From Hwanghaeella grinnelliae (GTDB lineage: Bacteria > Pseudomonadota > Alphaproteobacteria > UBA8366 > Aestuariispiraceae): a DNA stretch of 64,000 bases. The translations under genes were made by a program, and so were the position numbers. The notes under the pieces were generated by a model. That model worked only from the letters and a program-made list of their open reading frames with translations. It was not told the DNA's origin and made no database searches. The stretch spans positions 310,001 through 374,000 of the forward strand of contig NZ_SADE01000003.1 of the NCBI RefSeq assembly GCF_004005845.1, in the 5' to 3' direction. Every line of letters begins with the position of its first letter. The first letter of the stretch is position 1. This document shows, piece by piece, positions 28,980 through 32,992 of the stretch.

Positions 28980-29867
28980 TCAGAGCAGGCCCGCGCCCTG
29001 CATCGCGGCCTTGACCCGATCCTTGCTGGACTGGGCGATTTCGACCATCGGCAGGCGCGCGAAGGCATTGGATTTGCCGAGCAGGCTGGCGCCGTATTTC
29101 ACCGGCCCCGGGCTGCTTTCACAGAACATCGACCCATGCACCGGCATCAACCGGTCGCGGACCTCAGCGAAAGCGGCATAGTCCTTTGCCCGCCAAGCAG
29201 CATGCAGCTTGGCGCAGAGCCCCGGCGCGATGTTCGAGGTGACGGAAATGCAGCCATGCCCGCCCTGTCCCAAGAAGGCGCCGATCGTGCCGTCTTCCCC
29301 CGAAAGCTGGGAGAAATCGTCGCCGATGGCCAGGCGCGTGAGCACCGGCCGGTTCAAATCGTTGGTCGCGTCCTTCACGCCCACGATGTTCGGGAAATCC
29401 TTGGCCAGCTTCGCCATGGTCTCGACCGACATATCGATGATGGAGCGGCCCGGAATGTTGTAGATGATGATCGGGATATCGACCGCCTTGGCGATGGCCG
29501 CGTAATGGCCGTAGAGTCCCGCCTGGGTCGGCTTATTATAATACGGCGTGACGACCAGGGCCGCAGAAGCGCCGGCCTGCTTGGCATGCTTGGTCAGGTG
29601 GATCGCTTCTTCGGTATTGTTCGAGCCCGAGCCCGCGATGACCGGCGCACGGCCGCCGGCGGCTTCGATGCACAGATCGACGACGCGTTCATGCTCCGCA
29701 TGGCTCAGCGTCGGCGATTCACCGGTGGTGCCGACCGGGATCAGCCCTTCGGTCCCTTCCGCCAGCTGCCATTCGACGAAGGCCTGGAACGCTTTTTCAT
29801 CGATGGCGCCTGTATCGGTCATCGGTGTGATCAAGGCCGTCATCGACCCTTGGAACATGGCAGCCAT
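28980..29867 (-). CDS. dapA: 4-hydroxy-tetrahydrodipicolinate synthase
   Basis: 295 residues, normal length. Condenses pyruvate with aspartate semialdehyde in lysine and meso-diaminopimelate synthesis. Visible are GTTGESPTLSHAEHE, PYYNKPTQAG with the active-site Tyr, and VGVKDATNDLNR with the Schiff-base Lys. No sign of the altered motifs seen in other class I aldolases of the family. The annotated start is ATG 29867; an internal ATG nine bases later is possible. Upstream of smpB. Confidence 0.95.
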   Translation of the reverse strand: MAAMFQGSMTALITPMTDTGAIDEKAFQAFVEWQLAEGTEGLIPVGTTGESPTLSHAEHERVVDLCIEAAGGRAPVIAGSGSNNTEEAIHLTKHAKQAGASAALVVTPYYNKPTQAGLYGHYAAIAKAVDIPIIIYNIPGRSIIDMSVETMAKLAKDFPNIVGVKDATNDLNRPVLTRLAIGDDFSQLSGEDGTIGAFLGQGGHGCISVTSNIAPGLCAKLHAAWRAKDYAAFAEVRDRLMPVHGSMFCESSPGPVKYGASLLGKSNAFARLPMVEIAQSSKDRVKAAMQGAGLL

Positions 29868-30037: not shown

Positions 30038-30700
30038 TCAGCTGCCCGTCCACGCCTCGGGCGAGATATCCGATGGCGTATTCAGGCATAGAAGCAGACG
30101 CGTTTCACCGAGTTTGGAAACGGGTGGCGAGCGGTGAACCACCCCGTATCCGGTCCCAGTTTCGACCCCTTTGCCGTTTGACCCTTTGAAGATTGCGACG
30201 TCATGTCGGTCGAGCGTTTCCACCGGCCCGGAATATTCGCGTTGATCGTCAATCGCCGTTTCCGCCCATTCGGGCCGCACCCATTCCGTCCCCGGCCCCC
30301 GATAGGTGGTGAGCAGCCGGACGGAAACATTGTCGCGATGGAATTTCCAGCAGGCGTCGTGGCGGATCCGCTCCAACCGGATATCGACCAATTCTTCCTC
30401 GGTGATATCGCTGAAGAGACCGGCGATGACGTGGATGTCGTCGATCAGCAGGTCACGCATTTCACCGCTCGGCATGCCGCAGTCGTCCAACAGCTTCGCC
30501 AAGGCGGCCGGGACGTCCGCGGGGCGCACGAGAATTCTGAGCGACGGCAACAGCGAGAAAGGAACGCGGTCTATCCAGTCGGTGAAAGCAGCCGGCAAGG
30601 AACGTCGCCAAATCGCCAGCCCGGTTTCCGGATCGGCGATCCGTTCCAGCCCGCCCGGCGCATCGCAGTATGCGACCGGAATCACTTGCGCCCCGTCCAT
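30038..30700 (-). CDS. DUF1826 protein of zinc-starvation operon
   Basis: 220 residues from ATG 30700, which overlaps the TGA of the COG0523 GTPase gene (TGATG), so translation is coupled. It matches the DUF1826 family, known mainly as a neighbour of COG0523 GTPases and Zur-regulated genes. Segments such as DDIHVIAGLFSDITEEELVDIRLE and CWKFHRDNVSVRLLTTYRGPGTEW, with several His and Cys residues, could hold a metal or an iron/2-oxoglutarate-like site, but the biochemical function is unknown. I reject the longer frame since it would extend into the GTPase gene. Confidence 0.8.
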   Translation of the reverse strand: MDGAQVIPVAYCDAPGGLERIADPETGLAIWRRSLPAAFTDWIDRVPFSLLPSLRILVRPADVPAALAKLLDDCGMPSGEMRDLLIDDIHVIAGLFSDITEEELVDIRLERIRHDACWKFHRDNVSVRLLTTYRGPGTEWVRPEWAETAIDDQREYSGPVETLDRHDVAIFKGSNGKGVETGTGYGVVHRSPPVSKLGETRLLLCLNTPSDISPEAWTGS

Positions 30701-31926
30701 CAGGATTCCGCCCGTTTCCAGACAGGGAACGGGTCCTTCAACATCTTCCACGATCCTGGCCGCATCGTCTGGTCGTCCCTGTCCCCGACGAGACAGGCAT
30801 CCAGCTGCTCGCGGATCGCGGCCTCGTCCATACCGGCGCCGATGAAAACGATTTCCTGCCGCCGGTCGCCATAGACGGGATCCCACAGCCCATCCATATG
30901 TTGACGCCAATCCGGATGGTCGGGCCAGCGTTCCTTGGGGATGGCGGACCACCAAATCCCCATCGCTTCATGCCGTGTGATCGCACCGGCCTGGCTCAAC
31001 TCCCCGACCCAATCCGGGCGCGTCGCCAGCCAAAAATGGCCTTTCGTCCGGATGACCCCCGGCCAGGAGCCGTTGATGAAGTCGTAGAATTTCTCCGGAT
31101 GGAAGGGCCGGCGTTCCCGGTAGACGAAACTGCCGACGCCGTATTCCTCTGTTTCGGGCGTATGCTCCTCGTGTCCGTAGAGCTCCTTGAACCAAAGCGG
31201 GTGCGCCTGCGCCTTTTCGAAGTCGAACAATCCTGTGTCGAGAACGGCTTCAGTCGATACCTTCGACATGCTCGTCTCCAACAGCCGCGCATCCGGGTTC
31301 AGCGATCGGATTATCTTCCGCGCCGAGTCGACCTGACTTTCAGAGGCGGCGTCGACTTTGTTGAGAATGACGACATCCGCGAATTCGATCTGATCGACGA
31401 GTAGATCGACCAAGGTCCGGTTGTCTTCTTCACCCAGGGACTCGCCCCGGTCTCCGATGAAGTCCGTCGATGCGTAGTCCTTCAGAAGGTTCGCCGCATC
31501 CACCACGGTCACCATCGTGTCCAGACGGGCGATATCCGACAGGCTTTCGCCGTCTTCGTCGCGGAAATCGAAGGTCGCGGCCACGGGCAGGGGCTCGGCA
31601 ATGCCCGTCGATTCGATAAGCAGATAATCGAACCGCCCTTCCCCCGCCAGCCGCCTGACTTCCGTCAACAGGTCGTCCCGCAGCGTGCAGCAAATGCAGC
31701 CGTTGGTCATTTCCACGAGGTTTTCCTCGGTACGGCTGAAATCGGCGCCCCCCTCTCTGATCAGGTCAGCGTCGATATTCACCTCGCTCATGTCATTGAC
31801 GATCACCGCCACACGCTTTCCGTCCCGGTTGTTCAATATGTGGTTCATCAGCGTGGTCTTTCCGGCCCCTAGGAAGCCGGACAGGACGGTAACGGGGAGT
31901 TTCGGGCCTTGGGCCGAGTGAGTCAT
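30700..31926 (-). CDS. COG0523 (CobW/ZigA-type) metal-chaperone GTPase
   Basis: 408 residues from ATG 31926 (a GTG two codons earlier is possible). N-terminal G domain: [15 protein letters not shown] is the P-loop, [12 protein letters not shown] the metal-binding CxCC motif, IESTGIAEP the switch, and LNKVDA the guanine-specificity motif. A CobW C-terminal domain follows (about 260-380). Close neighbours in this family (ZigA, ZagA) insert zinc into client enzymes when zinc is scarce. The operon partners folE and DUF1826 and an upstream Zur-type box support zinc rather than cobalt as the metal. Confidence 0.9.
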
Positions 31927-32063
31927 CTGCACAACACGTGATCCCTAATTTGACTGTTGAAAGAGTTGTTCTAAGCCGCCCTTGGATGGGTTTGGCACGC
32001 GCTAGGCACGGGCCGGGCGCGCGCAAACGCCACTGCAGCGCGGCATCAGACAGGCTGAAAGGA

Positions 32064-32702
32064 TCAGGCGGAATCGAGCCGCCCTTGCCCCTGTCCAATC
32101 ATCGCCAGGTAGTCCCGCCGCATCTGCGGATCCTCCCGAAAAGCGCCCAGAAGGCGGCTCGTGACCATACTGACCCCGGGCTTTCTTACGCCGCGTGTCG
32201 TCATGCATTGATGCGCCGCCTCGATCACCACCGCGACGCCCTTGGGTTCCAGCACGGTCTGGATCGCATCGGCGATCTGGGCCGTCAGCGATTCCTGGAT
32301 CTGCATCCGCTTGGCGAAGACCTCGACGACACGGACCAACTTTGAGATCCCGACGACCCGGCCGGAGGGAAGATATCCGACATGCACCTTGCCCAGAATG
32401 GGGACGATATGATGCTCGCAATGCGTCTCCAGCCGGATGTCACGCAGGACGATCATCTCGTCGTAGGAATTTTCTTCATAGGTCGTGGCCAGCAGCTCGA
32501 CCGGATCCTCACGGTAGCCCGCGAAGAACTCCTCATACGCCCGAACAACGCGTGCCGGCGTGCCGACCAAGCCCTCCCGATCGGGATCTTCCCCCGCCCA
32601 TTCGATCAAGGTCCGAACGGCCTTTTCGGCCCGCTCACGGCTTGCGCCGCTCCGCGAAACGCCCCCCGATTGTTCCGGCGTCAATTGCCCAATCCTTGCC
32701 AT
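32064..32702 (-). CDS. folE: GTP cyclohydrolase I (type IA)
   Basis: 212 residues from ATG 32702, with AGGTGAG about 9 nt upstream; a GTG at 32714 is the alternative. Converts GTP to 7,8-dihydroneopterin triphosphate, the first step to folate. The zinc ligands of the type IA enzyme are intact: THCEHH with Cys and His, and the later Cys in [20 protein letters not shown] and [10 protein letters not shown] match the family. It heads an operon with a COG0523 GTPase behind a Zur-like box, so it may be a copy expressed under zinc starvation and fed zinc by the GTPase. Confidence 0.93.
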
Positions 32703-32780
32703 GATTGCACTCACCTATCGATTTTCTGCGGTTCCATCGCCGGACGGGTGATGCCGGCTCCGTTTGGCGAATAGATAGTC

Positions 32781-32800
32781 ATGTTATATCATAACGTTTC
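32781..32800. promoter_or_regulatory. Zur-box-like palindrome upstream of folE operon
   Basis: ATGTTATATCATAACGTTTC contains GTTAT-ATC-ATAAC, a near-perfect dyad that fits the alphaproteobacterial Zur pattern (ATGTTAT, 3 nt, ATAACAT). It lies 80 nt upstream of the folE start, in promoter position for the leftward operon. Zur would repress when zinc is plentiful. Recognised by eye only. Confidence 0.7.
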
Positions 32801-32992
32801 TTTTCAGCAATACACCAAAACGCCTTGCCGGGAAGCAGGGTTTGCCCCTGCTTCGGTCGGCGATGGTCCCGATGTTGAATAACCAAAAGGGAACAAACGA
32901 GCGCGTGTTCGGGGTTTTGACCATTGACGCGCTGCGCGGAAAATGTGGCTTACCGTCCCCCACCCCAAGATGAGCATGGCCCCTAATAGGGT

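Follow-up and report, generated by a model that had tools for sequence, protein, structure and literature searches.

A folE-zigA-DUF1826 operon with a Zur-type box in Hwanghaeella grinnelliae as a probable zinc-starvation unit with a second type IA FolE

A locus in the genome of Hwanghaeella grinnelliae bears on which enzymes receive zinc first when it becomes scarce, and on how the COG0523 GTPases choose their clients. In the stretch of DNA analyzed in this study, a window of 64,000 nucleotides, a candidate client is paired with such a GTPase in one operon. The candidate client, FolE, belongs to a clade that is set apart from the other FolE copies, and a zinc-free fallback was not found in the 21 genomes searched. 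The two FolE copies of the genome would also give a direct handle on client choice.

Gene calls and profile matches placed three genes in a single run on the minus strand, which agreed with the original prediction. They were folE, encoding a type IA GTP cyclohydrolase I and being the second copy of the genome (32064..32702; PF01227, 244.5 bits), zigA, encoding a COG0523 GTPase (30700..31932; NF038288, 637.8 bits with a cut-off of 600; cobW, 189.8 bits), and a gene for a DUF1826 protein, a predicted Fe(II)/2-oxoglutarate oxygenase (30038..30700; PF08856, 164.5 bits). The intergenic gap between folE and zigA was about 130 nt, and the stop codon of zigA overlapped the ATG of the DUF1826 gene by one base (TGATG). 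The start codon of zigA was GTG, with an in-frame ATG two codons later. The next minus-strand gene after the DUF1826 gene was dapA (28980-29867), and no terminator-like site was found after the DUF1826 gene. A Zur-box-like palindrome with its flanks, which was not assigned to either strand, was located at 32777..32801 and was the top matrix site in the window. Its core, GTTATATCATAAC at 32783-32795, lay 80 nt before folE as predicted, provided that the ATG at 32702, from which the folE coordinates were counted, is the true start; an alternative GTG start is possible at 32714. No sigma-70-like promoter was found at the box on the minus strand. Two were found on the plus strand, where a promoter-like site overlapped the box.

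In the window, the pattern GTTATNNNATAAC had a single match at up to one mismatch, the exact one before folE, and shuffled sequences gave 0.57 such matches on average. In the whole genome, the exact core was found only at the folE box and 25 further sites had one mismatch. These 26 forward matches compared with 52 matches for the reversed control pattern; since the control was commoner, the one-mismatch sites were background by count. Moreover, about 1.6 occurrences of the bare 10-base core were expected in 5.32 Mb at the base composition of the window, so by itself the core proves little. This expectation, together with the presence of Fur and Irr in the genome, is what could be said for the palindrome being the site of another Fur-family regulator or a product of chance. 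As a check of the box, a Zur matrix scan had been proposed. A 25-bp matrix was built from 51 sites in the DUF1826 loci of other genomes; the sites were picked by the core, so that the matrix is circular for the core and independent for the flanks. The folE box scored 31.8 bits, the zinT promoter 31.4 bits and the znuA/znuCB-zur promoter 17.5 bits, against a maximum of 12.0 bits in shuffled sequences (40 shuffles of the 64-kb window, 2.56 Mb). The score of the folE box was thus not at background level. When shifted copies of the folE box were set aside, the next independent site in the window reached 4.0 bits. A degenerate 17-mer matched the 5.3-Mb genome without mismatches only twice, at the folE box and at zinT. 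The znu site differed from the 17-mer at two positions and was one of six such places; as allowing up to two mismatches gave 7 matches for the 17-mer and 9 for the reversed control pattern, these matches were background by count and the assignment of the znu site rests on its matrix score. Because a matrix learned from other genomes also picked zinT and znu, a chance origin of the box was rejected, and, with the same box being common to the zinc loci of relatives, a site for another Fur-family regulator is very improbable too.

The folE operon thus shares, by the matrix, a Zur-type operator with the zinc genes zinT and znu. A zur gene was present at the end of znuC-znuB-zur. Its product is a member of the FUR family, for which the best NCBIfam model was Zur with 101.7 bits, a score under the cut-off of 167. 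The identity of ZinT was confirmed by PF09223 (281.4 bits), and ZnuA was likewise checked by profile. The zinT gene (L012:770-1435) has its box at 1501-1513, about 65 nt before an ATG, and is likely, judged by this site, to be a third member of the regulon. ZnuA (L004:263-1471) contains a long repeat rich in His and Asp.

The same box was also found in relatives, for which the best 80 of 99 DUF1826 loci in other genomes were compared, some of them from close kin. For 70 of these loci, 1.5 kb or more of sequence was available upstream of DUF1826, and up to 3.2 kb of it was inspected. Among the 70, 50 carried a box with no more than one mismatch (1.5 in dinucleotide shuffles) and 27 carried an exact one (0.05). 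Downstream of DUF1826, the box was present in 4 of 68 loci. A box together with zigA-DUF1826 was present, for example, in Azospirillum sp. B4 (L172). Near folE, a box at the same tolerance (one mismatch at most) was found in only 7 of the 16 named folE clusters, among which that of L118 is cut off at this place. Thirteen further loci were also inspected, several of which are not independent of the 80 (L256 to L259 are). An identical core preceded zigA-DUF1826 in the same gene orientation in three other genomes from this family (L256, L257 and L259), with zigA of L259 being matched only in part, and a genome of the same genus (L254) had separate boxes for zigA and for DUF1826. Zur control of folE-zigA-DUF1826 is strongly supported by these computations and, as far as sequence evidence goes, almost certain, and the matrix and the loci of relatives lend the same support to the predicted reading of the three genes and the box as one operon.

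A search for a second folE, which the original prediction had also suggested, identified another type IA copy at C4:711116-711646 that was 61% identical to the copy in the operon. At least two FolE matches were found in all 17 genomes compared, namely the 16 that have a folE cluster and this one. A tree of 35 FolE copies placed 17 of them in a clade with 99/99 support that was separated from the 18 others; the labels of cluster and other copies were set from the gene neighbors after a first tree had been seen. The clade consisted of the window copy, 15 cluster copies and the copy of L206, which was counted with the clusters and has only hisI downstream; L118, which is cut off, was excluded. 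Among the other copies, those of L188 and L195 also have a downstream hisI, of the Cys type (L280 and L278). The FolE sequences of L114, L186 and L205 were taken by tblastn extraction. The Cys-His-Cys zinc ligands were conserved in all 35 copies, including the 17 clade members, and the expectation that the zinc ligands of the operon FolE are intact was borne out (Cys-His-Cys, PF01227). By strict count, only four positions were specific to the clade. Type IB FolE (FolE2, PF02649), which spares zinc, was found in none of 21 genomes, this one included, while the controls were positive in 5 of 14.

In the clusters of relatives, folE is accompanied by other genes. The hisI gene was part of the cluster in 20 of the 80 loci. 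All nine HisI copies read from beside this FolE in relatives (L284-L292; e.g., L101:5737-6330 and L122:4743-5246) possessed Asp-Asp-Asp; one of them adjoins L206 and eight belong to DUF1826 clusters. Nine further HisI copies were found, including L276, L277, L279 and L281; the five others, which were read, possessed Asp-Cys-Asp. The conserved Cys is presumably a zinc ligand, and the Asp-type HisI may, from its sequence, have lost it. Only one HisI match was found in the genome of the window, with no second copy.

These observations bear on whether the second FolE is made for zinc. It could instead be metal-promiscuous and accept Fe(II), Mn(II) or Co(II) despite its Cys-His-Cys ligands, in which case it would spare zinc and ZigA would serve other clients. 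The Asp in HisI, where zinc sparing may occur, and four genomes in which this FolE was found without a detected ZigA are consistent with such a role, which we nevertheless regard as doubtful, given that the three ligands are kept in 17 of 17 clade members with so few clade-specific positions. As HisI is altered and the FolE ligands are kept in the same clusters, the contrast favors an operon FolE that is intended to work with zinc. The second copy might also serve only to increase enzyme levels when zinc is short, without any special hand-over from ZigA, as was raised for paralogues with intact ligands (Haas et al., 2009; PMC2770081). The absence of zigA from the cluster in 7 of the 16 named loci, some of which are cut by contig ends, would fit this possibility. 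Against it, ZigA was found in 13 of the 17 genomes with this FolE, scoring over the cut-off in 11, and a link between ZagA and FolE is known in Bacillus subtilis (PMC13339975). Hence, we consider a mere effect of enzyme amount rather improbable, slightly more so than metal promiscuity, and retain a dedicated, zinc-dependent FolE with ZigA as its candidate feeder as the preferred reading.

Two further groups of genes were noticed in these loci. A small protein of 84-119 residues, with a stretch around TELMPRLVEAYG, was encoded between hisI/folE and zigA/DUF1826 or just before DUF1826 (L114:6369-6647, L112:2798-3076, L118:946-1224, L125:6344-6625, L101:6348-6704 and L166:7711-7962). Three of its copies (L112, L114 and L166) had no match in Pfam. 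In addition, an iron-type alcohol dehydrogenase was encoded beside DUF1826 in L116 (5707-7752) and L122 (6824-7948), both of which were checked, and in L111 and L099 by eye; in L116 it was accompanied by an S-formylglutathione hydrolase. A zinc-free formaldehyde route under zinc shortage is possible from this gene content.

The GTPase of the operon was of the ZigA type, exceeding the curated cut-off of the NCBIfam model, and its Walker A, CxCC and NKxD motifs were all present. The Cys before the Asp of the G-motif, which may be a hallmark of the ZTPase ZagA (PMC11340326), was absent, the motif reading NKVD. The original prediction had drawn a parallel with ZagA and FolE, which interact in B. 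subtilis (PMC13339975). The parallel held in that FolE and a COG0523 GTPase share an operon; it did not extend to the ZagA-type Cys, nor to G291, G295, G300 and G301, four possibly incomplete genomes among the 17 with this FolE, in which ZigA was not found at E ≤ 1e-60. Near DUF1826, zigA was found in 44 and folE in 16 of the 80 loci, and these loci had been found via DUF1826, which by itself accounts for part of the association with DUF1826. Given the known ZagA-FolE interaction, a hand-over to the operon FolE is the leading idea, and ZigA as its zinc feeder is plausible by this analogy.

The third protein had been predicted to be a consistent member of the operon with unknown function. Its presence in the operon was confirmed, and for its function there is now a prediction. 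Of 289 genomes sampled across the class, 38 had a DUF1826 protein, this one included. For Pseudomonas and Francisella, such proteins have been tied to zinc shortage or to Zur regulons (PMC2770081, PMC5786701, PMC9431628, PMC11761036). In a structure alignment of 77 sequences (A3; the window and 76 of the 80 loci, L137, L146, L161 and L174 being short or cut and excluded), 21 residues were invariant, including Cys117, His121, Asp123, Arg128, His189, Arg190, Pro192 and Arg201. In a wider alignment of 38 sequences, four had Ser in place of R201. Another alignment (A1) contained the window sequence and 31 of 37 matches, with L084, L085, L088, L089, L094 and L097 excluded. The predicted model was confident (pLDDT 93.4, pTM 0.91), and the double-stranded beta-helix fold was recognized in this predicted model. 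Foldseek yielded 83 PDB matches at E ≤ 0.001, with AtDAO1 as the best (E 5e-6), and the matches were modest (TM by query, 0.31-0.51; rmsd, 6.6-10.6). Going by their titles or by what these proteins are known as, the 50 matches listed are Fe(II)/2-oxoglutarate oxygenases or close kin of such enzymes, including ACC oxidase. VIA-align gave Z scores of 10.0 for PolD (rmsd 4.1 over 173 residues), 9.9 for PHD2 and 9.9 for the prolyl hydroxylase of Pseudomonas putida. According to the note on the method, models for which Foldseek has no clear match typically reach a best Z of 7 to 8, and a Z of about 10 therefore lends middling support. The HxD...H triad and a distal Arg were all present (H121, D123, H189 and R201). 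In this oxygenase superfamily, 2-oxoglutarate is bound at an Arg located 12 residues downstream of the last His. We take the HxD of DUF1826, its later strand His and the Arg 12 residues on to fit the iron and 2-oxoglutarate sites of the superfamily. A stretch of an oxygenase from the same genome, HRVTPVTKGTR, resembles HRSPPVSKLGETR of DUF1826, which is a hint only.

Sequence comparisons did not confirm this prediction. Pfam searches with 32 DUF1826 members identified no 2-oxoglutarate family up to E 10; a PDB profile search with DUF1826 gave no oxygenase, only seven weak matches to other folds (E 0.03 to 1.4); and hhalign against four small oxygenase sets from related genomes gave nothing significant, the best E being 0.026 at 1.9% probability. 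These failures either count against an oxygenase or were too weak to decide. A constant partner of DUF1826 was not seen by eye in the 22 loci without a closely adjoining zigA. PF08856 was not found by its identifier in the literature searched, and a 2-oxoglutarate role for DUF1826 was not met in the available portions of PMC2770081, PMC5786701 and PMC9431628. DUF1826 could also be a protein that binds or uses zinc through Cys117-His121-Asp123-His189, such as a buffer, a chaperone or a hydrolase, with no oxygenase activity. The invariant Cys117, which precedes His121 of the HxD by four residues, is consistent with this. Moreover, a Zn-sparing paralogue or Zn-chaperone has been suggested for PA5534, the DUF1826 protein of Pseudomonas aeruginosa (PMC11761036), which was higher in zinc-depleted cells by two proteomic methods (3.5, p 0.42, and 4.3, p 0.056, values that appear to be log2), and the domain has been noted in predicted succinylglutamate desuccinylases that may be zinc dependent (PMC5786701). 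A non-oxygenase of this kind nevertheless seems the less probable alternative to us, as the fold matches listed are oxygenases and the position of the Arg relative to the last His suits the binding of 2-oxoglutarate. DUF1826 is thus predicted to be an Fe(II)/2-oxoglutarate oxygenase from modest fold matches that sequence profiles do not confirm. DUF1826 recurs in Zur-linked loci, and the prediction opens it to a concrete assay.

Taken together, the locus is probably a Zur-repressed zinc-starvation operon that provides a dedicated second type IA FolE, zinc delivery by ZigA and a DUF1826 oxygenase. The box, the shared regulon, the gene families, the FolE clade and the negative search for type IB FolE support this reading at the level of sequence, whereas the repression itself, the hand-over of zinc and the catalysis and target of DUF1826 are inferred. 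At ample zinc, Zur:Zn on the box would block the operon together with zinT and znuA/znuCB-zur. As zinc falls, the dedicated type IA FolE, with its zinc site kept, would be made; ZigA would most likely pass scarce zinc to clients, with FolE as the prime candidate; and DUF1826 would most likely act as an Fe(II)/2-oxoglutarate-dependent hydroxylase of some target. More speculatively, some alphaproteobacteria may respond to a lack of zinc with a separate clade of Zur-controlled zinc-dependent FolE that receives privileged zinc via ZigA, in place of a zinc-free FolE, and with a DUF1826 hydroxylase whose substrate would be a protein involved in translation or in the allocation of zinc; we propose this extension only tentatively.

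A Zur regulon with a COG0523 GTPase is of a known kind. What would be new is a clade of Zur-controlled, zinc-dependent FolE in genomes that gave no type IB match, and the reading of DUF1826 as an oxygenase. Similar to the P4H/PHD-type Fe(II)/2-oxoglutarate oxygenases, DUF1826 has the HxD...H...R pattern and, by prediction, their fold; different from them, it has the invariant extra Cys117, and homology in sequence was not detected. In P. aeruginosa, zigA also adjoins DUF1826 in PA5536-PA5534 (dksA2-zigA-DUF1826), a transcription unit named in PMC10393844, and both zigA and DUF1826 were reported to be higher under N-acetylcysteine (PMC9431628) and zinc depletion (PMC11761036). There, however, FolE2 is in a neighboring Zur unit, FolE1 (PA3438) is elsewhere, and the available accounts assign no function to DUF1826. 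Op0317f_1 of Cupriavidus metallidurans (cobW1, folE_IB2) is likewise Zur-repressed and combines a COG0523 GTPase with FolE, and binding between CobW1 and FolE_IB2 was reported (PMC10882993). Its FolE is, however, of type IB and metal-promiscuous, and DUF1826 is not named in the accessible part of that source. Similar to ZigA as proposed here, ZagA of the B. subtilis Zur regulon is a COG0523 GTPase that is produced under zinc shortage and interacts with FolE (PMC13339975), and the Zur-controlled FolE of B. subtilis is folE2 of type IB (PMC6103462). Thus, the Zur-controlled FolE named for Bacillus, Pseudomonas and Cupriavidus is FolE2/type IB (PMC2770081, PMC6103462, PMC10882993, PMC11761036), and a Zur-controlled type IA folE was not met in the sections available of PMC2770081, PMC6103462 and PMC10882993. 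Different from B. subtilis, the FolE that is putatively under Zur control in H. grinnelliae is of type IA, in a genome where type IB was not found, and is encoded in the same operon as the GTPase.
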